Origin: Ignavibacteriota bacterium
GTDB taxonomy: Bacteria > Bacteroidota > Ignavibacteria > UBA10030
Direction: 5' to 3'
Assembly (NCBI GenBank): GCA_003142475.1
Contig: PLMK01000005.1
Coordinates: 38,364 to 86,426 of the forward strand
DNA: 48,063 nucleotides
Shown here: one piece after another, positions 10,512 through 20,591 of the stretch
Numbering within the stretch: position 1 is the stretch's first letter
How the letters are laid out: each line of letters begins with the position of its first letter
Notes under the pieces: generated by a model
The model's input: only the letters and a program-made list of their open reading frames with translations
The model's database searches: none
What the model was told of the DNA's origin: nothing
Translations under genes and position numbers: made by a program

Positions 10512-10927
10512 ATAGAGATTCCTTTGAGATGTGAAGAATCATAAAATGAGAGAATAAATATGCGTGTACTGTTTCTTCTATTACCATTACTCGATAAAAC
10601 AGTCATAAGAAGATGAAAGTTCCACACCTATGCCAACCTTATGAAAGAGAGAGCGGGGACTTTACCGGTAGAATCTCAAAAAGAAAAACGATCGAGCGTG
10701 AAGCATTATTTGTTTCTTCTTTAGCTTTCTCCTTGAAGTTTGTATTTCTTAAGTCACTTTTGTAGATTAGAACCAGTTCTACTATGATATGCACACGGGG
10801 AATAGCATATGCAGATTTGCCAACGTAAGAGTTTTCCAAACACACAATGATATTAATGGACTGAAAGGTGGAGTCTGTGGTTTACGCTTATAAGCGCAAA
10901 ATATAGATTAAGTCTATTTAATCACAT
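10512..10927. other. Intergenic gap before the cassette array
   Basis: About 416 bases with no convincing gene. A 68-codon minus-strand frame at 10639-10845 has no family likeness or ribosome-binding site. The promoter of the dienelactone hydrolase should lie at its left end. A perfect 12-bp palindrome CGCTTATAAGCG (10885-10896) lies just before the solo attC-like core. Confidence 0.5.
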
Positions 10928-10938
10928 GTTAGGGCGCA
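10928..10938 (+). repeat. Solo right-hand attC-like core (GTTAGGGCGCA)
   Basis: GTTAGGGCGCA is identical to the right end of the complete attC-like site at 11471-11656 and fits the attC core GTTRRRY. It lies 14 bases before the first cassette gene, where the boundary of a cassette is expected. No matching left core (TGCGCCCTAAC) is seen in the preceding 400 bases, so this is either a truncated site or the array edge. Confidence 0.6.
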
Positions 10939-10952
10939 GCCTTACATAACAG

Positions 10953-11462
10953 ATGCTGACAAATCAACAAAATAATACCGATCAAAAGTTACGAATCGCG
11001 GCATTTCATTTAACCGAGATCGCCAAATCTTATCAAGCTGCTATCGGCGATGACTTCAGTGTCGCTCATTATGAAGCCTTTCTCGCTCAGCTATTTGGCG
11101 CGTATGACTCATTTCTACAGGAAGTCAATCAATTCTTCGGATTTGAATTATCCCCTACGCAGGTTACATTGAACAATCTTTCAAGCAAGTCAACTCTAGT
11201 TCAGAAACCAATTTTTGATGAATTGACTTCATTGGTTAAAGATCCCAATAGTTGGTTCGGTCAAGCGAAACGGTTTCGCAATCATACAACCCATGTGAAC
11301 AGAGTTGGAATCACGTATCACGTTGGCGGTCCTAACAGCGGTAAATCTATGTTTCGTGATCCAAGTACTACGCAAACTCTTGAGCAAGATATCTTGTCAT
11401 TATTAAAAACATGGCTAAGCGAAATGGAACAACTTATTTCTAGATTAAGGTCTATTATGTAA
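10953..11462 (+). CDS. Hypothetical protein, HEPN-like (tentative), first cassette
   Basis: 169-residue mostly helical soluble protein, with no signal or membrane segment. A possible HEPN signature R-x4-H is seen at R109-N-H-T-T-H114, preceded by an aromatic residue (WFGQAKRF) as in many HEPN RNase or nucleotide-binding proteins; this motif is short and could be chance. The gene fills a unit bounded by attC-like cores (10928-10938 on the left, 11471-11656 on the right) and is the only gene in it, the normal shape of an integron cassette. No partner antitoxin or MNT-type gene is adjacent. The function is unknown. Confidence 0.7.
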   Translation: MLTNQQNNTDQKLRIAAFHLTEIAKSYQAAIGDDFSVAHYEAFLAQLFGAYDSFLQEVNQFFGFELSPTQVTLNNLSSKSTLVQKPIFDELTSLVKDPNSWFGQAKRFRNHTTHVNRVGITYHVGGPNSGKSMFRDPSTTQTLEQDILSLLKTWLSEMEQLISRLRSIM

Positions 11463-11470
11463 CAATCAGC

Positions 11471-11656
11471 TGCGCCCTAACCAGGCGTTCAAGCTGATCG
11501 GATGAGCCTGCCTGCCGGCAGGCAGGCGTGGGTACGTTAAGCATGGCGTACAGAGGTTTTGTGAAATTGGAAAGTAAATTACATGGAACTCGGTTCGGGC
11601 AGTTGTACATTGAAAGTTATCGTTGCTGCAACTTAACCGCCATCCGTTAGGGCGCA
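11471..11656. repeat. attC-like recombination site A
   Basis: 186-bp element with perfect 11-bp terminal inverted repeats TGCGCCCTAAC (11471-11481) and GTTAGGGCGCA (11646-11656), matching attC R''/R' cores. The inner boxes GGCGTTCAAG (11484-11493) and CTTAACCGCC (11632-11641) are complementary except for an unpaired base on the left arm, as in attC L''/L' boxes with an extrahelical base. A 22-bp palindrome (11506-11527, centre CTGCCGGCAG) lies in the variable middle. It is longer than typical attC (about 57-141 bp). Confidence 0.75.
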
Positions 11657-11680
11657 CAGAATTTACTCTAGGATAAAATT

Positions 11681-12991
11681 ATGACAAAACAAACCTTTAC
11701 AATCATAATATTATGTGAAGCCTGGATTGCATGCAATTCTCCTAACTCTCCTGTTGAATCAAAGAATAATATTATACCACCTTCAGATTCTTCACCAACA
11801 GTGTCTATAATTCCAAACAAAACAAAATTAGCTCCAGGAGATACGCTGAAGATATCTCTTCAAGCTTCTGATTCAACTTTAGCAAACGGTTCGATAGACT
11901 TTAGTGACGGAACTATTATTCAATTCAACCATTTGAGTAAGATCTTTGACACAACTATTGTTCATATTTATTCCCAAGTTGGAATATATAATATATATGT
12001 AAAATTTAGTGATGGAAATATGACAACATCTTCTTCGTTAATAATCACGGTCACATTTGTTTGGACGACACAGTCGAGCGGAACGATAAATACCCTTTAC
12101 AGTGTCTTTTTCACAAAAATGAATACAGGCGTGGTTGTAGGAGATAACGGAACCATTCTTCGAACGATTAATGAAGGTACTACGTGGGAAACCGTTAGTA
12201 GTGGAACAGCGGCTACTCTCAATAGAGTCTCATTCGTCAACGAATTAATTGGAACTGTCGTTGGGACTGGAGGTACTATTCTACGTACGATAGACGGAGG
12301 TAAAAGCTGGACACCACAGATAAGTGGAACAAACTCAAATCTACATAGCGTTTCTTTTATAGATGCTAATGACGGTGCAGTGGTAGGCGACAATGGTACC
12401 ATTCTACTTACTAAAGATGGTGGAACAAATTGGATAAATCAAACACCCATTAAATGGGATACTATTATCCCCCCATCTCCCCCAATGTTATATGATGTTT
12501 GCTATCCTGAACCCAATCACATTATTGCATTATCTGGCGGTACTTGGAGTTTTTCCTTGCGCACTACAAACGGTGGCACAAACTGGGTATATGAACGAAA
12601 TGTACCCAGTAATTATCCTAGGATAATATTTTGGAATAAAGATACAGGAATGATGTTTTGTCCAGATCATATGACGGGGCAGAATTGGACCATTGTATAT
12701 AAAACAACTGATGGTGGAAATACTTGGTTCCAATATGGCGGTAGTACTGGAGGTATATATGCATATGATGTATCCTTCTCGAATCCAGATAATGGAATGA
12801 TAGTAGGAAGTCCGAGTAGTGTTGGAGGTAGTACTATTGAGTGCACAACAGATGGAGGTCAAACTTGGACTGCGCAATCTAGTGGTACGACATCAATAGC
12901 TCTTTTTGGTGTCTTCTTTATAGCTGCTAATAATGGAACTATCGTCGGTAGTGGCGGTACAATTCTACACACAACACCTGGTGGGATGTAA
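11681..12991 (+). CDS. Ycf48-like beta-propeller lipoprotein with PKD-like domain
   Basis: 436 residues. Leader with lipobox ending WIAC (C18), a PKD-like beta-sandwich at about 45-125 (DGTIIQFNHLSK..., HIYSQVGIYNIYVKFSDG), then repeated propeller blades of the photosystem-II-assembly-factor/Ycf48 kind: GTILRTINEGTTWETVSSGTA, GTILRTIDGGKSWTPQISGT, GTILLTKDGGTNW and later TDGGQTWTAQSSGT. In non-photosynthetic bacteria such lipoproteins are secreted or surface-bound; substrates are unknown. It has no T9SS tail, unlike the next propellers. It is the sole gene between attC-like sites A and B. Confidence 0.85.
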   Translation: MTKQTFTIIILCEAWIACNSPNSPVESKNNIIPPSDSSPTVSIIPNKTKLAPGDTLKISLQASDSTLANGSIDFSDGTIIQFNHLSKIFDTTIVHIYSQVGIYNIYVKFSDGNMTTSSSLIITVTFVWTTQSSGTINTLYSVFFTKMNTGVVVGDNGTILRTINEGTTWETVSSGTAATLNRVSFVNELIGTVVGTGGTILRTIDGGKSWTPQISGTNSNLHSVSFIDANDGAVVGDNGTILLTKDGGTNWINQTPIKWDTIIPPSPPMLYDVCYPEPNHIIALSGGTWSFSLRTTNGGTNWVYERNVPSNYPRIIFWNKDTGMMFCPDHMTGQNWTIVYKTTDGGNTWFQYGGSTGGIYAYDVSFSNPDNGMIVGSPSSVGGSTIECTTDGGQTWTAQSSGTTSIALFGVFFIAANNGTIVGSGGTILHTTPGGM

Positions 12992-12999
12992 AATAATAT

Positions 13000-13222
13000 C
13001 GCCGCCTATCCAAGCGCTCAGGTTGACCGGATGAGCCCGCCACAAAGACGGCGGGCAAGCTCACTGCAAAATTCATGGCGAGCAGAGGTTGAGTGTTAAA
13101 TTGAAAGTTGATATAATGAACTTGTGGCGCAGAGCGCCATGGCGCGGAACATATAAATGTGAGGCGCCATTTCGTTATCAACATGTTGCAAATTATCAGT
13201 GCGGCAGCTTAGCGCCAATCCT
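13000..13222. repeat. attC-like site B, decayed
   Basis: Related to sites A and D but with damaged cores: the left end reads GCCGCCTATCC instead of ...CCTAAC, and the right end after CAGCTTAGCGCCAATCC lacks GTTAGG. Inner boxes remain (left AGCGCTCAGG; right CTTAGCGCC at about 13208-13216). The central palindrome is replaced by a different hairpin, GCCCGCC / GGCGGGC, showing structure kept while sequence changed. Shared middle text (GCAGAGGTT, TGAACTTG) aligns it with A and D. Confidence 0.6.
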
Positions 13223-13295
13223 GCTTGCTGAAAGTCTTATGCTTATATAAAATAATCACTAAATCATTCCTCATCTATGAAGAAGTGTACAATTT

Positions 13296-14675
13296 ATGGC
13301 CCGTAACACTGGAATTAAAATCAGCTCCTCATCACTGAGGAGACGCAAGTTTCTAAAGATGCTTGGACTCGCTGCTGTCGCAACAACGGGGATTCCAGGC
13401 ATAATAGACCCACTTAATTTCGCCAGGGCTGCAATTGCACCCGGCGAAAAGGGCATCTATATTACCGACATGTACATAGGGCAACTGTCCGGATGCGGCG
13501 GTGTTATTGTTCGTCTCGACACAAACAAAGGGATTTCGGGATATGGCGAATGCCGTGAGAACGACAGTTATGTTGTAACCGACCTGAGCTACCTCAAGCC
13601 GGCCGTTATTGGAATGAACCCTACTCAGGTTGACAGAGTTTTCGATGCAATGAACAATGCAATCCTGACTTATTACGATCCGCGCAGCGCCTACTCCATG
13701 AGCCTGATTCCTCCACGTTCAGGAGCACTGTGCGGCATTGAGGTGGCCTGCTGGGACATTGTCGGCAAAGTGTATAACATGCCGATATGGAAACTCATCG
13801 GCCCTAAACTCAGAGATAAAGTACGATTATATTGCGACACTACTGAGAGGACCGCGGACACGTTGCCGCAATACGTCCAGTCCCGATTAGACATGGGGTT
13901 TAGATGGTTTAAAGCAGATATGACTCTTACTTCCCTGTGCACTATTAATACCGATTATACCTCACAATCCGAAAGCGGTTATCCTTACACGTGCTATACT
14001 ATTAAAGATTCGGGGCTTCAAAAGTTTGCGAACTACGCCGGGCAATATCGAAGCTTAATCGGCAATGATTATCCTCTCTCATCCGATCACTATCAAGGGT
14101 GGGCCAGTAAAATTAACCTCGATGTTCCTTCGGCTGTTAAACTTGCCGATCTTATGTTGGAGTCGAACAATCAGGGTATGAACGGGGGATGGATGGAAGA
14201 TATCATCCAATGGTGGTATCCCGATCAATTCGCGCAGGTAACTGCCGGTACAGATATGCCGATTCTTACCGGTGAGGACATTTATAGTTTTAGCGAGCTC
14301 AAGCCATGGATCGATGCGGGGACGTTGGATTATATTCACCCGGATCAAGCCTCTTTCGGAGGGATACACGAGACCAGCCGTGCCGCCTCGTATGCGCATT
14401 CGAAAGGCATTTTTACTGCGTTACACTGCGCCGGGGGGCCGTTCTCGTTCGCAGCCAACCTTCACATTGCCGCAGGCATCCCCGATTTTCTCGCCCTGGA
14501 ATACCACCATGTAGACGATTCGTGCAACTCCTGGTTTGACAGCGTGGTTGACGGTTTTATAAGGCCTTTTATTCAAAGCGACGGACATTCATACGTACCA
14601 AATGGACCCGGACTGGGCATAACGCCGAACGCGACGGCGAATTCGCATGGTCTCTCATGGACACAGGTGACATAG
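13296..14675 (+). CDS. Tat-exported mandelate racemase/muconate lactonizing-family enzyme
   Basis: 459-residue enolase-superfamily protein with a twin-arginine signal (SLRRRKFLKMLGLAAVATTG, residues 13-32). The N-terminal capping domain is followed by the barrel, with WFKADM (catalytic-lysine position), metal-ligand candidates in SSDHYQGW, GGWMEDI and LTGEDIYS, and the catalytic histidine region TALHCAGGP. Members abstract the alpha proton of carboxylates, often sugar acids (dehydratases) or racemase substrates; which applies is not visible. Export by Tat is uncommon for this family and suggests action on extracellular sugar acids. GC content is clearly higher than in the flanking genes. It shares a unit between attC-like sites B and C with the following propeller gene; their ends almost touch. 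Confidence 0.87.
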   Translation: MARNTGIKISSSSLRRRKFLKMLGLAAVATTGIPGIIDPLNFARAAIAPGEKGIYITDMYIGQLSGCGGVIVRLDTNKGISGYGECRENDSYVVTDLSYLKPAVIGMNPTQVDRVFDAMNNAILTYYDPRSAYSMSLIPPRSGALCGIEVACWDIVGKVYNMPIWKLIGPKLRDKVRLYCDTTERTADTLPQYVQSRLDMGFRWFKADMTLTSLCTINTDYTSQSESGYPYTCYTIKDSGLQKFANYAGQYRSLIGNDYPLSSDHYQGWASKINLDVPSAVKLADLMLESNNQGMNGGWMEDIIQWWYPDQFAQVTAGTDMPILTGEDIYSFSELKPWIDAGTLDYIHPDQASFGGIHETSRAASYAHSKGIFTALHCAGGPFSFAANLHIAAGIPDFLALEYHHVDDSCNSWFDSVVDGFIRPFIQSDGHSYVPNGPGLGITPNATANSHGLSWTQVT

Positions 14676-14683
14676 GAATATTT

Positions 14684-15985
14684 ATGAAACAAGTTTTGCG
14701 GTTCTCTACGGTCTGGATGGCCGTTGTATTGTCATTCGGAAATGCAGTGGTTGGTTTTACACCGGTTGCTACAGCCAATGTGCATGGCAATGACGGCGCT
14801 TCGGCCTGCACAACCACGCTCGACAGCGAATGGATACAGACAAATTGGCCGGCAAGCAACAGTTTTTTTAGTCTTTACACGAGCCAGGACAAGGTTTTTG
14901 CAAGGATCTGGGACAGTCTTAATGGCGGCCGTATGTTTCTTACCGTCGATGACGGCACAAACTGGACTCAGATCGGTTCTGCAGACAGCAGTATTGACAT
15001 TCTATCCATTGTAATGTTGAACTCCAAAATTCTTGCCGGTACATGGAATGGTTTTTTTCAATCCACCGATGACGGCAGAACCTGGAATGCTGTCATACCC
15101 ACTGGAATAGCTGCAGACACTACCATATGGTCCATTGTGATGATTAATTCCACTCTTTTTGCGGGCATAACAGGTGGTATCTATAAATCCTTAGACAATG
15201 GCAGTACCTGGACCGGAGTAAGTTCGGGAATACCAGTGGATGTCCGTATTACCTCTATTGTTGCAAGTGGGAACACCATTTTTGCAGGAAGTGCCAGCAA
15301 CGGTGTTTTCAAAACAACAAACGGCGGAACAAGCTGGACTGCAATCAATTCCGGCCTTACTGATAAGCACATCTCCCAGCTCGCGGTTTTGGGTACTAGA
15401 ATGTTCGCAGTGACCTTGACCGGTGTTTTTATATCCGACAATTACGGCACGAACTGGGCGGCAGACAATTCCGGCCTAGAGAACGTAAATTGCTTCGTCG
15501 TTGTGAATGATCAGCTTTTTGCCGGCACCGATGACAACGGAGTCCACCGCTCGACCGACGGCGGCGTAACCTGGGCTTCATTCAGCTCGGGGATACCTGC
15601 CAACACTCGTATTTGGTCCCTGGCCGTAAACAGCGACGGTATCTTTGCCGGGACAAGTTCCGGTGTCTGGGTTACGGCTTCTCCCACTGAAGTAAAGATA
15701 GAAAGAGTAATCTCAGATCCCTTTTCATTTTCCTTGAAACAGAACTTTCCAAATCCGTTTAATCCCAGTACAACTATTTCATTCACCCTCGCTAAAAGAT
15801 CATTTGTGATTTTAAAAGTATATGACATTTTAGGAAGAGAGGTTGAGACATTAATAAATGGAGAAATGCAAGCTGGTAATCATAATCAACTATGGAATGC
15901 GGCCAATTTATCAAGCGGTATATACTTTTATCGTTTACAGGCTGGATTGTTTACAGAAACAAAGAAATTAGTTTTATTGAAATGA
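14684..15985 (+). CDS. Secreted beta-propeller with T9SS sorting domain (chimeric composition)
   Basis: 433 residues from the ATG at 14684 (AGGAA nearby, and a signal peptide MKQVLRFSTVWMAVVLSFGNAVVG begins there); a longer frame from 14657 overlaps the upstream gene and is less likely. Residues about 35-335 are BNR/sialidase-like propeller repeats (DGRTWNAVIPTG, NGSTWTGVSSGI, GGTSWTAINSGL, GGVTWASFSSGI). The last ~90 residues are a T9SS type A sorting domain (NFPNPFNPSTTISF ... LSSGIYFYRLQ). The propeller part is about 50% GC, whereas the sorting-domain part from about 15700 is near 34%, an abrupt change inside one gene. Likely a surface or secreted binding protein. Confidence 0.85.
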   Translation: MKQVLRFSTVWMAVVLSFGNAVVGFTPVATANVHGNDGASACTTTLDSEWIQTNWPASNSFFSLYTSQDKVFARIWDSLNGGRMFLTVDDGTNWTQIGSADSSIDILSIVMLNSKILAGTWNGFFQSTDDGRTWNAVIPTGIAADTTIWSIVMINSTLFAGITGGIYKSLDNGSTWTGVSSGIPVDVRITSIVASGNTIFAGSASNGVFKTTNGGTSWTAINSGLTDKHISQLAVLGTRMFAVTLTGVFISDNYGTNWAADNSGLENVNCFVVVNDQLFAGTDDNGVHRSTDGGVTWASFSSGIPANTRIWSLAVNSDGIFAGTSSGVWVTASPTEVKIERVISDPFSFSLKQNFPNPFNPSTTISFTLAKRSFVILKVYDILGREVETLINGEMQAGNHNQLWNAANLSSGIYFYRLQAGLFTETKKLVLLK

Positions 15986-15989
15986 AAGA

Positions 15990-16123
15990 AAAACTTGAAA
16001 ATTATTGATGCCGCAGCGCGTTGTTTGTGTCCCGCTAAAGCGGGATCCGCACTTCGACCACGATTTGATTGGGAAACATCAAATCTGTCGAAGCGGGACT
16101 TAGCGCCGATCCGTTAGGCGGCA
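15990..16123. repeat. attC-like site C (left core lost)
   Basis: The right end GTTAGGCGGCA (16113-16123) and L' box CTTAGCGCC are intact; no left CCTAAC core is present, and the element begins directly after the upstream stop codon. From AACTTGAAAATTAT (15992) to the right core it matches site D over about 125 bp. Inner arms GTCCCGCT (16029-16036) and AGCGGGAC (16092-16099) can pair and enclose a hairpin with arms GATTTGAT / ATCAAATC. Confidence 0.65.
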
Positions 16124-16161
16124 CTTGATTTTTACAATTAGTAAAATACAGAGGAGGTCTT

Positions 16162-18267
16162 GTGAAAAATATTTTATTTGTTGTTTTTAGTTTAGTGCTT
16201 ATATCAACGGAATCTTTTTCTCAATGGGTTCAAACCAGCGCGCCAGCGGGCGGATATATTACATCTTTTGCATGCAGCGGCACAAATATTTTTGCTGGAA
16301 CATACGGAGCCGGTGTTTTCCTTTCTTCGGATAACGGAACAGATTGGGTACCTGTAAATTCAGGAGTGCTTTATCCTTCTGTCCGCGCACTTGCAACTAT
16401 TGGAACAAATCTTTTTGCTGGTACTTGGGGTGGTATGTATCTTTCAAAGGATAATGGAAAAAAATGGACGTCCATTAATGCAGGGTTAACGACAGGTGCG
16501 ATCTGGGCTCTTATAGCAAGTGATACAAATCTTTTTGCTGGAACTTTTGATGAAGGAGTTTTCTTATCTACTAATAATGGCTCAAGTTGGGTTGCGGTCA
16601 ATACAGGATTAACAAATTTACGTATTAGTTCTTTTGCTATAAAGGATACAAATCTTTTTGTGGGCACAGATGGAGGTGTCTTTCATTCTACAAATAATGG
16701 TACGAGTTGGACCGAAGTCAACACAGGGTTAACGCATACCGGCATTACTGCTCTTATTGCAAGTGGTTCGAATCTTTTTGCTGGTACCAATTATGGAGAT
16801 ATCTATATTTCTACAAATAATGGTGAAAATTGGAATGCCACCAATTTGATTAATCCATATTCTAATAATATTACTGCCTTTGCAGTTCGTTCAGATGGGA
16901 TAGGTGATACACTGCTCTTTGCAGGTACAAATGGGTACGGTGTTTTTCTGTCTACAAATAACGGAACAAGTTGGACTGGAGTAAATACCGGATTAACAGC
17001 TATCTCTGTATTTGCCTTAATGGAGTATGGAACAAACCTCTTTGCAGGAACGGAAGTCGGTGTGTTTCTCACTAACAATGATGGTGCAAATTGGAATGAA
17101 AGTGACTCTGGTCTATCGGCAACGGAAATCCATGCATATAATACAAAAGGATCAAATATTTATGCTGCTACCTGGGCGAGTGGAGTATTTGTTTCCAAAA
17201 ATGATAGCTTGAACTGGACGCGTTTAAATACTAGAATAAAAATATACAATATTACATCACTTGTAGTAAGTGTTTCAAATATCTTTGTTGGAACTGACGT
17301 TGATGGTTTCTTTATTTCCACAGACAATGGCACAACATGGTCAAAAAGCAATACAGGACTGACGAATACTAATATTCAAACTCTTGCTATCTCTGATTCA
17401 AATCTTTTTGCAGGAACTGATGGCGGTGGTATTTTTCTTTCCTCGGATAATGGCGCAAATTGGAATGCTGCCAATATCGGATTGACAAATATGACTGTAT
17501 ATAATCTAACAGTATACAATAATACCATTTATGCTGGGACTGCTGAGGGGGGTGTTTTTGTTTCGAGTAATAATGGTTCAAGTTGGTCATCCCTTGGTGT
17601 TGTGTCGCCGAAATGTCAAGTGCGCTCAATTATAATTTGTGACACAAATATTTTTGTTGGAACTTTGGGCAAAGGTGTTTTTCTTTCTACATACAACGAT
17701 ACAAGTTGGACTGCAGTTAGCACTGGTTTGACCGATATGAATATTTTTTGTCTTGCTGTAAGCGGTAAAAATATATTTGCTGGAACATGGCTCGGAGGTG
17801 TTTTTCTTTCTACTAACAATGGAACTAATTGGACTTCTGTAAATACTGGGTTGCCAAATACTCCAGTGTACGCTCTCAGAGTGATTAGTGAAAATCTATT
17901 TGCTGGAACTAGTAGTGGAACTAGTAGTGGATCTGTTTGGAAACGGCCTCTCTCTGAGATGATTACCGTTACCTCTGTTAGGAAAGTTCCTGCTCAATTA
18001 CCAGAAAGATTTGCGCTATATCAGAACTATCCAAATCCGTTTAATCCAAGTACGTCAATTTCATTTAGTCTCCCATTAAAATCTTTTGTGTCGTTGAAGG
18101 TTTTTGATATTATGGGTAGAGAAGTTGCCACTCTTGTCAATGAAGAGTTATCTGCTGGGAATCATCTTCAGCAATGGAATGTAGCAAATATATCAAGCGG
18201 AGTATATTTCTATAGGATACAAACGGGTCTATTCACCGAAACAAAAAAATTATTATTGCTCAGATAA
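16162..18267 (+). CDS. Large secreted BNR-type beta-propeller with T9SS sorting domain
   Basis: 701 residues. Signal peptide (MKNILFVVFSLVLISTESFS), then about fourteen ~40-residue repeats of the form NLFAGT..GVFLSTNNGTSWT.VNTGLT, the pattern of sialidase/BNR Asp-box propeller blades; fourteen repeats would make two seven-blade propellers. The C-terminal ~90 residues are a T9SS type A sorting domain (NYPNPFNPSTSISFSLP ... NISSGVYFYRIQ). It starts with ATG? No: the start codon is GTG at 16162, with AGGAGG seven bases upstream. It is the only gene between attC-like sites C and D. It is paralogous to the preceding cassette's propeller but with AT-rich, host-like composition throughout. Catalytic residues of a sialidase are not evident, so binding is more likely than hydrolysis. 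Confidence 0.85.
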   Translation: MKNILFVVFSLVLISTESFSQWVQTSAPAGGYITSFACSGTNIFAGTYGAGVFLSSDNGTDWVPVNSGVLYPSVRALATIGTNLFAGTWGGMYLSKDNGKKWTSINAGLTTGAIWALIASDTNLFAGTFDEGVFLSTNNGSSWVAVNTGLTNLRISSFAIKDTNLFVGTDGGVFHSTNNGTSWTEVNTGLTHTGITALIASGSNLFAGTNYGDIYISTNNGENWNATNLINPYSNNITAFAVRSDGIGDTLLFAGTNGYGVFLSTNNGTSWTGVNTGLTAISVFALMEYGTNLFAGTEVGVFLTNNDGANWNESDSGLSATEIHAYNTKGSNIYAATWASGVFVSKNDSLNWTRLNTRIKIYNITSLVVSVSNIFVGTDVDGFFISTDNGTTWSKSNTGLTNTNIQTLAISDSNLFAGTDGGGIFLSSDNGANWNAANIGLTNMTVYNLTVYNNTIYAGTAEGGVFVSSNNGSSWSSLGVVSPKCQVRSIIICDTNIFVGTLGKGVFLSTYNDTSWTAVSTGLTDMNIFCLAVSGKNIFAGTWLGGVFLSTNNGTNWTSVNTGLPNTPVYALRVISENLFAGTSSGTSSGSVWKRPLSEMITVTSVRKVPAQLPERFALYQNYPNPFNPSTSISFSLPLKSFVSLKVFDIMGREVATLVNEELSAGNHLQQWNVANISSGVYFYRIQTGLFTETKKLLLLR

Positions 18268-18273
18268 TGCAAT

Positions 18274-18540
18274 TGCGCCCTAACCAGGCGCTCAAGCTGA
18301 CGGAATGAGCCTGCCTGCCGGCAGGCAGGCGTGGATACGTTAAGCATAGCTAATAGAGGTTTTGATGTTTAATAATTAATTTTTCAGCATGAACTTAGTT
18401 CGTTTTCAGCAACTTGAAAATTATCAGCGCGGCAGCACGTTGTTTGCGTCTCGCTAAAGTGGGATCCGCACTTCGACCACGATTTGATTGCGAAGCATCA
18501 AATCTGTCGAAGCGAGACTTAGCGCCGGTCCGTTAGGCAC
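18274..18540. repeat. attC-like recombination site D
   Basis: 267-bp element with left core TGCGCCCTAAC (18274-18284) and right core GTTAGGC (18532-18538). L'' GGCGCTCAAG (18287-18296) pairs with L' CTTAGCGCC (18518-18526), leaving one unpaired C (18293), exactly the extrahelical-base layout of attC. It contains the same 22-bp palindrome as site A (18309-18330) and the same 125-bp right module as site C. Arms GTCTCGCT (18448-18455) and AGCGAGAC (18511-18518) differ from site C by a compensatory pair. Confidence 0.78.
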
Positions 18541-18541
18541 C

Positions 18542-18682
18542 ATGCAGAATAGAACAAAAAAGGTAAATGAAATGCAAAAAATTTCCAATACAATCGATAA
18601 TATACGCACAATTGCTATAGCACTAACTTTAAATGTTCTTCGCATAGTTAATACAATCTTCTTGATAGGAGTTTTGAAATGA
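18542..18682 (+). CDS. Possible small membrane peptide upstream of ZIP transporter
   Basis: 46-codon frame beginning three bases after the right core of site D (MQNRTKKVNEMQKISN...) and ending in a hydrophobic stretch (IALTLNVLRIVNTIFLIGVL). Its stop overlaps the ZIP start as ATGA, suggesting translational coupling. There is no clear ribosome-binding site of its own and no recognised family, so it could be a leader rather than a functional peptide. Confidence 0.35.
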   Translation: MQNRTKKVNEMQKISNTIDNIRTIAIALTLNVLRIVNTIFLIGVLK

Positions 18683-19398
18683 ACTACGTAGCAATAATAT
18701 TGGCCTTGATAACATTTTTATCGACGCTCTTCGGCGGGTTCATCGTCTTGAAATTCAAAAAAAGTCTTTCAATTATATTCGCTTTTGCAGCAGGGAGCGT
18801 CTTAACCGTCGCGCTCATGGAGATACTGCCCGAAAGCTTGGATATTGCAAATAAATTCGGAATCCCGGTTAAGTATATAATGATGTCTGTTGTGTTGTCA
18901 TTCCTGTTTTTTATAATTCTCGAGAAGCATTTCTCAGCTCATCCTATCAAAGGGATAATTTCTGAGGGGCATGTCATGGGACCCATTGGTGCAGGAAGTC
19001 TTATTCTGCTAAGCTTCCTGGATGGTCTCACCATGGGGATAGCGTTTCAAGTGCGCGTCTCTATTGGCATCGTGGTGGGCCTTTCAGTAATAATCCATGA
19101 CTTGCCGGACGGCATTAATACAGTGGTTTTGATGCTCAAGAACGAACAGTCAAAGAAAAAGGCATTGATCTTTCTTTTTATGGATGGTCTCGCACCGCTG
19201 TTGGGTGTTTTGCTCACGTCAATCATATTAATTCCGAAGAGTGTTCTCGCAATATTGCTGGCGGTTTTTGCCGGTGAGTTCATTTTTGTGGGAGCGGCGA
19301 GTCTTCTCCCGGAGAGCCAGGAGCACAACGTCCCCCGAATCGCGGTAGCAACGACTTTGGGCTTCCTCTTTATATTCGTGATTACGATATTCCTGTAG
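18679..19398 (+). CDS. ZIP family divalent-metal transporter
   Basis: 239-residue membrane protein with about eight helices. Metal-site motifs of ZIP transporters are present: LSFLDGLTMGIAFQ in helix IV (variant of HSVxDG, histidine replaced) and VIIHDLPDGINTVVLML in helix V (HxxPDG, variant of HNxPEG). ZIP proteins move zinc, iron or similar ions into the cytoplasm or across inner membranes. GGAG lies about 8 bases before the ATG. It directly follows the last attC-like site, so it may be the last cassette or the start of the chromosomal flank. The loss of the helix IV histidine may alter metal selectivity. Confidence 0.85.
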   Translation: MNYVAIILALITFLSTLFGGFIVLKFKKSLSIIFAFAAGSVLTVALMEILPESLDIANKFGIPVKYIMMSVVLSFLFFIILEKHFSAHPIKGIISEGHVMGPIGAGSLILLSFLDGLTMGIAFQVRVSIGIVVGLSVIIHDLPDGINTVVLMLKNEQSKKKALIFLFMDGLAPLLGVLLTSIILIPKSVLAILLAVFAGEFIFVGAASLLPESQEHNVPRIAVATTLGFLFIFVITIFL

Positions 19399-19464
19399 AG
19401 TTGTGCGAATAAGTCTCTAAACAAAATGATTAATTTATACAACAAAATATCGGAAAATATTATT

Positions 19465-20022
19465 ATGACCTTTTCAAATAATTTAAATCGAATACATCTT
19501 GAACAAGCCCTGACAGCGAAACAATTGCGAGTAATTGTCATCATCAGAATTGCCCTGATGTTTGGAATCTTGTTCTACTACTTCGTTGTTCTTCTGTTAT
19601 ATTCTCTGTTCAATCCCGGCGGCTTTAGTAAACAAGATACGTCGTTGATGGATGTGCTTTCCGTAGCACATGCTGTTTTCACGCTAGTAGCGATCACATT
19701 GGCGTTTTATCTCTCAAGCCTTCTGCTGCGTCCCGAACGTCTCACCGAGCAGTCTGACATTCAAACACCGGAAGAGGCTGCTCTTTATGCCGTTGGATTA
19801 TATCGGGCAAGCTCACTGATACTCATGGCACCCATTGAAGGAGCATCCTTCTTCGGAGCTGTGATTTGTATGATTGGGGTTCAGAACGGGACAATAGAAT
19901 TTTATCCGATGTATTGGCTGAATGCAGCATCTGCCGTTTTATTAATCTTGGTAGGAATAATGACATTCCCGACACGCGAGAGGGTTCTTAAAACGTTGGA
20001 GTCTGCATTCGTGCAACGGTGA
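19465..20022 (+). CDS. Hypothetical four-helix membrane protein
   Basis: About 185 residues. Predicted membrane helices: VIVIIRIALMFGILFYYFVVLLLY, VAHAVFTLVAITLAFYLSSLLL, SLILMAPIEGASFFGAVICMIG and YWLNAASAVLLILVGIMTF. The start is uncertain: ATG at 19465 is preceded by GGAAAA, while a longer frame from 19426 adds 13 unremarkable residues. No family is recognised. It is preceded by the ZIP transporter and followed by a thioesterase; there is no evidence for a joint function. Confidence 0.65.
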   Translation: MTFSNNLNRIHLEQALTAKQLRVIVIIRIALMFGILFYYFVVLLLYSLFNPGGFSKQDTSLMDVLSVAHAVFTLVAITLAFYLSSLLLRPERLTEQSDIQTPEEAALYAVGLYRASSLILMAPIEGASFFGAVICMIGVQNGTIEFYPMYWLNAASAVLLILVGIMTFPTRERVLKTLESAFVQR

Positions 20023-20032
20023 TTCTTGTAAG

Positions 20033-20062
20033 GCCGCAATCTATCCAAGTGCTTAAGTTAGA
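20033..20062. repeat. Possible attC-like left-end remnant
   Basis: CTATCCAAGTGCTTAAGTTA resembles the left end of decayed site B (CTATCCAAGCGCTCAGGTTG), differing by transitions only. It lies between the membrane-protein gene and the thioesterase gene. A second short match to the middle of site D (TTAAGTATAGCTGATAGAG, 20513-20531) lies just beyond the thioesterase. Short and degenerate, so tentative. Confidence 0.35.
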
Positions 20063-20076
20063 AAAGGAATTTGTTT

Positions 20077-20481
20077 ATGAATGAAATCAAAAATATTGTC
20101 CAAAAAGATGCTTTTGCTAAATTTCTAGGCATTAAAATTCTGTCGATCGGAGAAGGGACAGCAACAGCGGAGATGACTATCACAAAGGATCATCTCAACG
20201 GGGCATGTACAGCCCATGGAGGCGCTATTTTTTCACTTGGTGACACAGTCTTCGGTGCAGCGTCGAATACTCGCGAAGGATTAGCCATGGCAATTAATGT
20301 CAGTATCTCTTTTTTCAAAGCAATCACCGAAGGAAAACTTACTGCAGTCGCAGAAGAAATATCTCTGCACAAGAAACTAGCAACATATATCGTCAGAATC
20401 TTCGATGATAAATCAAAAATCATTGCTTTATTCCAGGGGACTGTCTATAGAAAAGAATACAAAGAGGGATTTGATCGATGA
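20077..20481 (+). CDS. PaaI-type hotdog-fold thioesterase
   Basis: 134 residues in the single-domain hotdog fold. Typical text: FAKFLGIKILSIGEGTATAEMTITKDHLNGACTAHGGAIFSLGDTVFGAASNT; the N-G-x-x-H-G-G-A-I-F-S-L-x-D segment carries the catalytic region of PaaI/4-hydroxybenzoyl-CoA thioesterases, with the aspartate in LGDT. It hydrolyses acyl- or aryl-CoA thioesters. ATG at 20077 was chosen over the in-frame TTG at 20071 because AAGGAA lies upstream at good distance. No phenylacetate genes are nearby, so the substrate is unknown. Confidence 0.88.
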   Translation: MNEIKNIVQKDAFAKFLGIKILSIGEGTATAEMTITKDHLNGACTAHGGAIFSLGDTVFGAASNTREGLAMAINVSISFFKAITEGKLTAVAEEISLHKKLATYIVRIFDDKSKIIALFQGTVYRKEYKEGFDR

Positions 20482-20591
20482 AGAACCCCTATAGGGTACA
20501 AGTATAGTTTATTAAGTATAGCTGATAGAGACACCTTGCCTTTCAAGCGAGCGTTTATTAATTTTATTCACACAATTATTTATCATACCTG

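Follow-up and report, generated by a model that had tools for sequence, protein, structure and literature searches.

How does an array of integron cassettes come to stand at a locus that has no integron integrase gene (intI) beside it? This question is raised by a stretch of 48,063 nucleotides, hereafter the window, in the genome of an Ignavibacteriota bacterium (GenBank assembly GCA_003142475.1, contig PLMK01000005.1, positions 38,364 to 86,426 of the forward strand). In an initial annotation made from the letters alone, four related elements and a solo right core were noticed between genes lying on one strand, and the region was attributed to an integron cassette array without an integrase or a platform in the window. 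Here we report that the array starts at an attI-type site, called the leader below, which recurs at many places in the genus, and that the region is very probably a satellite integron platform, that is, a cluster of attC sites lacking integron-integrases (CALIN) which possesses an attI of its own and whose cassettes would have been loaded in trans.

One proposal, given in the available part of PMC9024848, regards integrase-less arrays as degraded integrons; the same paper also reports that attI detection by IntegronFinder 2.0 is limited to class 1 and that attI sites are poorly described outside class 1. In what follows the genome that holds the window, a draft in 81 contigs, is named G000, its relatives are numbered from G001 onward, and the genus comprises six genomes (G000-G005).

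Results

The attC sites of the window

A covariance model of attC sites, R1, was built with the canonical R''/L''/L'/R' layout from 21 whole sites on other contigs of G000, none of them from the window. Searching the window with filters off, R1 detects three of the four elements (sites A, B and D, Table 1), and both the cassette array and the covariance-model check proposed with it are thereby confirmed. All four elements and the solo core lie where they had been placed, while their standing differs: A and D are whole attC sites, in which the R''-L'' and L'-R' halves pair and L'' leaves a base unpaired; B is decayed, with CTGCTTG in place of CGTTAGG in its R' core; and C, which lacks this pairing, is a right-half remnant for which R1 gives no whole-site match (E 0.29 for the best overlap). 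The right half of C is 91-92% identical to that of D over 87-91 bp. The claimed pairing of the L boxes with one unpaired base is exact in D (GGCGCT-C-AAG with CTT-AGCGCC), whereas A (GGCGTTCAAG with CTTAACCGCC) has one extra unpaired base. As side observations, a palindrome, CCTGCCTGCCGGCAGGCAGG, occurs at the equal point in the variable parts of A (11506-11533) and D (18309-18334), and the right halves of C and D (16008-16100 and 18429-18519) have in common a hairpin-rich stretch of about 90 bp, for which one partial match (81% over 42 bp, on L199) was found in the other G000 stretches fetched.

The search for further copies in the genome, which had also been proposed, gave at least 86 matches of R1 at E <= 0.1, spread over 25 G000 contigs, a count in which the 21 training sites, weak sites and partial sites are included and for which 150 of 1260 candidates were scored. 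That such an array arises by chance or as an assembly artefact is hardly credible: the genome is a draft and pairs of N stand inside attC sites on small contigs, but the window is free of N, the leader is found at the same place in G004, an assembly of about 20 contigs, and the E-values reach 1e-26. On the small contigs L017-L028 these N pairs suggest scaffold joins at repeats, and the cassette order there may be unreliable.

An attI-type leader at the array start

The solo right core at 10928 is present as annotated, yet it does not stand alone: it terminates an attI-type site, attI-B, with the cut between 10928 and 10929. The statement that neither integrase nor platform lies in the window therefore holds for intI, which is absent from it, and fails for the platform. 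The window segment 10728-10933 is homologous to positions 17430-17655 of G004 (blastn, 77% over 227 bp, ending 5 bases beyond the cut), and the homology stops at the solo right core; the upstream part of the leader also matches contig C43 of G000 itself (89% over 155 bp). By reading only, this upstream part in G004 resembles the end, now decayed, of an open reading frame (ORF) of acetyltransferase-like type.

A second covariance model, R2, was made from seven array starts, none of them adjacent to intI, with the window leader among the training rows (E 1.1e-10 within G000). In G000 it gives ten matches at E <= 10, eight of them at E <= 1e-5, and nine of the ten are followed by attC sites. Copies occur in all six members of the genus, 31 leaders in total including the seven used for training. 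Three weak matches are retained among the 31 (C3:6834 and C43 of G000, E 2.94 and 0.017, and G002_C145, 0.096); omitted are two weak matches of G003 (C5 and C18, E 0.03-0.05), reverse or partial overlaps, further weak matches on L268 and L269, and matches with E-values of 0.1-0.2 that fall in the L216 and L218 attI regions. Beyond the genus, three of 55 genomes match at E <= 0.1, none of which is counted in the 31: G018, where the site adjoins intI and gives the sole strong match (5.8e-7); G035, also adjacent to intI but weak (0.008); and G009, weak (0.013) and away from intI. At E <= 0.001, the matches among 32 genomes of the family come from the six genus members and G018 only.

The leader layout, namely a hairpin followed by CTAATCA.TAG/TT (a slash marks the cut), recurs beside intI in G018 and on contig C66 of G001, where 103 bp separate the cut from the start of a partial intI. 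The intI-adjacent sites of the two other integrase clades of the genus terminate in TCTAATCATAG/TT.

These comparisons bear on two alternatives. In attG secondary insertion, an IntI puts cassettes into unrelated chromosomal G/TT positions without an attI; it has been reported for other integrases (Loot et al. 2024, as cited in the parts available of PMC12901181 and PMC12444791) and would, like the present case, leave cassettes in the chromosome off the main platform and far from intI. It is an improbable origin for this array and is largely refuted by R2, as the target is neither a bare GTT nor a diverged genomic site unlike attI and attC, but a conserved attI-type leader that occurs at ten places in G000, nine of them with attC sites downstream, and that matches the intI-adjacent sites of G018 and G001 C66. 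Still less probable is that the leader is an unrelated dispersed repeat, such as a palindrome of the repetitive extragenic palindromic (REP) or miniature inverted-repeat transposable element (MITE) kind, which attracts cassettes. The palindromes of the leader and the diverse upstream contexts of its copies would suit such a repeat, but neither the recurrence of the layout beside the two intI genes nor the similar ends of the attI sites of the other two clades is expected from it.

Integron integrases in the genome and in its relatives

G000 is not an integrase-less genome. Its contig C49 encodes an intact integron integrase (446 bits with TIGR02249, cut-off 265), the only match of this genome at E <= 1e-40. 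Among solved structures its best match is the IntI of PDB 2a3v, to which residues 6-318 align with a single gap; it has the IntI-specific insertion, and its gene is divergent from the attC array, with an attI-type site in between. Downstream of this gene we also noted a second fragment of an intI C-terminus (C49 6774-6932, 97% over 35 aa). In G000 and 60 relatives, IntI above the cut-off is present in 18 of the 61 genomes, which in the genus are G000, G001, G004 and G005; G002 and G003, both drafts, have zero TIGR02249 matches at E <= 1e-40.

The IntI tree separates clade A (G000_C49, G001_C29 and G009; support 100/99), clade B (G005_C183, G001_C66 and G018; 98/90) and clade C (G004_C7 and G001_C56; 100/100). 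The G001_C66 gene is gapped and ended by the contig end, and it scores 195 bits, below the cut-off. Since the R2 sites of G018 and G001 C66 adjoin clade-B intI genes, the window leader is most simply read as the attI of clade-B integrons.

Could the region then be a complete integron in decay, which lost a clade-B intI of its own and received most of its cassettes before that time? This explanation overlaps with a satellite platform, so that the two are not exclusive, and we consider it rather unlikely. For it speak two decayed attC sites in the window, a short IntI remnant on contig C74 of G000 (64% to G018 over 61 aa), and five of the 31 leaders with intI or its traces upstream, namely the partial intI of G001_C66 and short remnants at G004_C15, G001_C92, G005_C41 and G003_C117 (the last of 26 aa, E 1e-4). 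Against it, tblastn at E <= 1e-3 finds no intI within 4 kb upstream of the window leader, nor any trace upstream of 25 others (4 kb was examined for 25 of these 26 leaders and 3.8 kb for one), and no remnant upstream of any G000 leader. In addition, the satellite array on C11 of G000 has an attC site at 159 bits, comparable to main-array sites, and attI copies of the two other types likewise occur in G000 without intI (clade-A type on C59, clade-C type on C24 and C6). The C74 remnant was rejected as a leader-linked one, as R2 finds no leader on that contig.

Two of these copies deserve a description. At about position 1078 of C59, a copy of some 145 bp (83%) of the C49-type attI region stands upstream of a gene which, by reading, we take to be O-acetylhomoserine sulfhydrylase-like. 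On C24, a tyrosine recombinase of XerC/D-like type (2-727), which the integron integrase model does not match, lies divergent beside the clade-C type attI (1163), which carries well-preserved attC sites.

Exchange of cassettes between relatives

The left flank of the array (pyruvate dehydrogenase E2/E1b/E1a, Rieske, 8409 and YceI) and its right flank (20592 onward) are conserved in G004 and G005, in both of which DNA homology with the window restarts at 20529-20535. Between these flanks, G005 has 426 bp and G004 about 12 kb made of the leader and other cassettes. Three pairs of platforms have homologous left flanks and differing first cassettes: the window and G004_C9; C3b and G004_C8, where the flank homology lies at unequal distances from the cut; and G001_C92 and G003_C117, the last compared over 0.7 kb downstream only. 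Different cassettes thus stand at G/TT in relatives, and an identical gene order in all relatives without exchange, named beforehand as the pattern speaking against integron recombination, was not observed.

Conversely, one cassette is common to non-orthologous platforms of two species, being the third at C11 in G000 and the third at C9 in G004. The two copies share 84% identity over 1265 bp, and recombination cores delimit the homology, which extends from the right end of the preceding site as far as the R'' end of the cassette's own site. The product is presumably an FG-GAP-like protein. A second common stretch (76% over 578 bp) connects C35 of G000 with C93 of G001.

Cassette ends were compared as well. 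In cassette 1, GTTAGGGCGCAG at 10928 and CTGCGCCCTAAC, with which site A opens, are exact reverse complements of each other, so that R'' and the cassette start are complementary at 12 of 12 bases; in cassette 4, three of 13 are mismatched, and cassette 2 shows no such complementarity. First cassettes behind the 31 leaders have an exact 12-bp self-complement in 17 cases (12 of the 24 outside R2 training), one mismatch in four, two mismatches in seven and none in three. At control GTT positions the exact form occurs once in 1898 upstream of leaders and twice in 6626 elsewhere, while one mismatch is found 26 times and two mismatches 449 times in the 1898; because of this latter number, two-mismatch self-complements carry no weight. 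For 22 of the 31 leaders the same strand carries an R1 match downstream, ahead of the next leader if there is one, and R1 scores tend to decrease with distance from the leader (the first exceeds the last in 13 of 18 arrays; p 0.04 by permutation within arrays, exploratory; scores were entered from the R1 searches and the contig-end-cut match L269:10053 was excluded).

Several observations weigh against the reading of the window as a platform loaded in trans. G000 has no intact clade-B IntI, so that any use of the window leader by its clade-A IntI is hypothetical. Nine of the 31 leaders have no R1 match downstream, and although five of the nine meet a contig end within 3 kb, the contig continues at G001_C116, G002_C145, G003_C90a and G004_C16. 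At ten leaders the self-complement is absent or is of the two-mismatch form expected by chance. The decay gradient is weak and the window departs from it (71.6, 47.3, 78.0); its decayed sites B and C fit a mostly inactive platform. Finally, the hairpin covariation of the seven leaders is no better than in shuffles. As little covariation was found among the 21 attC sites and none beyond shuffles in the leaders, the evidence for pairing is that of complementarity. One of the four leaders on continuing contigs, G004_C16, had been taken as an 'empty' platform, which was dropped, since a propeller gene, probably a decayed cassette, follows it.

Cassettes and cargo of the window array

The units behind the leader are listed in Table 1; all five of their genes are on the plus strand, as annotated. 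The two-gene unit is probably made of two fused cassettes, and the genes to the right of site D are possibly old cassettes with decayed attC sites. A decayed attC at 20040 was rejected there, as its left-half-like match (6 mismatches in 19) is at chance level. The cassette 1 protein also matches HEPN_Cthe2314 just below the cut-off, and the propeller of cassette 4 has a 49% relative in G004 C16, immediately past a leader. Neither Rfam at gathering scores nor ARAGORN for tRNA genes gives any match in the window.

Table 1. Features of the array and its leader in window coordinates (T9SS, type IX secretion system; R1 scores with filters off)
Feature	Position	Strand	Description
Leader, upstream part	10728-10895	+	about 150-200 bp common to G004 C9, G004 C8 and C43 of G000
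attI-type site attI-B	10896-10930	+	hairpin ATAGAT-TAA-GTCTAT (10903-10917), then TTTAATCACATG/TT
Cassette 1	10929-11646	+	gene 10953-11462, 169 aa, DUF6586 (Pfam); 12-bp perfectly complementary ends
attC site A	11471-11656	+	R1 match 11475-11652, 71.6 bits, E 2.3e-19
Cassette 2	11647-13222	+	gene 11681-12991, 436 aa, Ycf48/BNR propeller (Pfam PF14870)
attC site B, decayed	13000-13229	+	R1 match 13004-13229, 47.4 bits, E 1.7e-12
Two-gene unit	13223-16113	+	genes 13296-14675 and 14657-15985
First gene of the unit	13296-14675	+	459 aa, mandelate racemase/enolase-type (Pfam PF13378, PF02746)
Second gene of the unit	14657-15985	+	442 aa, propeller with T9SS tail (Pfam PF18962, TIGR04183)
attC site C, without its left half	15990-16123	+	right-half consensus, 2 mismatches in 21
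Cassette 4	16114-18532	+	gene 16162-18267, 701 aa, BNR propeller with T9SS tail (Pfam PF15902/PF18962)
attC site D, complete	18274-18540	+	R1 match 18278-18538, 97.3 bits, E 1.3e-26
Variable block, right part	18541-20528	+	ZIP transporter 18679-19398; unknown ORFs 19426-20022 and 20071-20481

The array had been described as loaded with secreted proteins. Propellers, T9SS tails and one enolase-superfamily enzyme are borne out by domain searches; the T9SS genes also suggest a lineage like that of Bacteroidota or Ignavibacteria. Two N-termini were judged by eye: the RRKFLK twin-arginine translocation (Tat)-like one of the 459-aa protein, and the lipobox-like one of the cassette 2 product, a probable lipoprotein. 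That such cargo is unusual has to be rejected, and with it secretion as a special trait of the window array. N-terminal hydrophobic segments occur in 35 of 73 main-array ORFs and in 30 of 68 satellite ORFs, the latter from G000 and its relatives, by a crude hydrophobicity rule and with main-array contigs assigned by the analyst. Propeller-like cassettes recur in main arrays, and blastp finds ORFs resembling the window propellers on C62, C8, C78, C65 and C24 of G000 as well as on G003_C55 and G004_C16; for a further match on C61, the T9SS tail alone may account. Signal peptides are a known cassette trait, reported for 13.2% of archaeal cassettes in the available part of PMC9668308 and for 11.6% of Xanthomonas cassettes in that of PMC12444791, percentages obtained by other methods and not comparable with our counts.

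Discussion

The mechanism we propose begins with an integron integrase encoded elsewhere in the genome, which would insert cassettes at the attI cut between 10928 and 10929. As judged from sequence comparison, it would act in trans on the window leader and might act still; its source could be the intact clade-A IntI of C49 today, or a former clade-B-like IntI of which C74 keeps a remnant. In this way the four or five cassette units, which attC sites connect, would have accumulated behind the attI-type site, and those that lose their attC sites by mutation or deletion would become fixed in place.

For the spread of the leader itself there are three routes, among which we cannot choose. It could result from the loss of intI in former integrons, in line with the five leaders with intI or its traces; from duplication together with flanks, as the 155 bp at 89% between the window and C43 would allow; or from integrase-mediated movement of attI pieces, to which one case may belong. 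In this case (G003_C29, past 1598, minus strand), a 29-bp piece with an attI-A-like half-site end separates the attI-B cut from the cassette that follows, which looks as if pieces of attI moved in the manner of cassettes.

Compared with known systems, the region resembles a CALIN: it has two or more attC sites, some of them decayed, its genome encodes intI but not in the vicinity, and it sits at a locus other than that of intI, as Xanthomonas CALINs do according to the available part of PMC12444791. Unlike a CALIN, it starts at an identifiable attI-type site, one of about ten in the genome. With a complete integron it would share the attI at the array start, but not the adjacency of intI and attI. 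With the sedentary chromosomal integron of C49 it has in common the attC family and an array running away from an attI-type start, while intI is missing and the leader is of the clade-B, not the C49, type. The Delta-attI-type cassettes described in the accessible portion of PMC12901181 are similar in that attI pieces can move with cassettes, as in G003_C29, whereas in this genus a complete attI-type leader stands at the head of arrays at many loci. Both CALINs and the off-platform insertion of the attG kind have been described before; what appears to be new is that a CALIN possesses an attI, and that its genome has many of this kind. Listings and abstracts of the open-access literature gave nothing on point for dispersed or orphan attI sites, beyond the occurrence of the terms 'attI-like site' in PMC10127599 and 'second attI site' in PMC7056807, and the available parts of PMC9024848, PMC12444791, PMC12901181 and PMC12690207 do not describe arrays starting at them.

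More tentatively, and with somewhat less than even confidence, we suggest an integron of one intact integrase and many platforms, in which dispersed attI modules of three types serve as at least a dozen landing sites, the arrays are expressed from their own chromosomal neighbourhoods and no single master array exists. The attI modules may themselves spread by integrase-mediated recombination.

If the start of many integrase-less arrays is a true attI that an integrase serves in trans, such arrays would be working outposts rather than the degraded integrons they have been proposed to be; insertion could bring cassettes under a variety of local promoters, and it would no longer hold that an integron has one attI. 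Searches for attI are seldom made outside class 1 integrons, and such platforms would therefore be overlooked. The genus, with three attI types tied to three integrase clades, offers a natural test of attI specificity, and one integron system may load genes at many places in a genome and in its close relatives.

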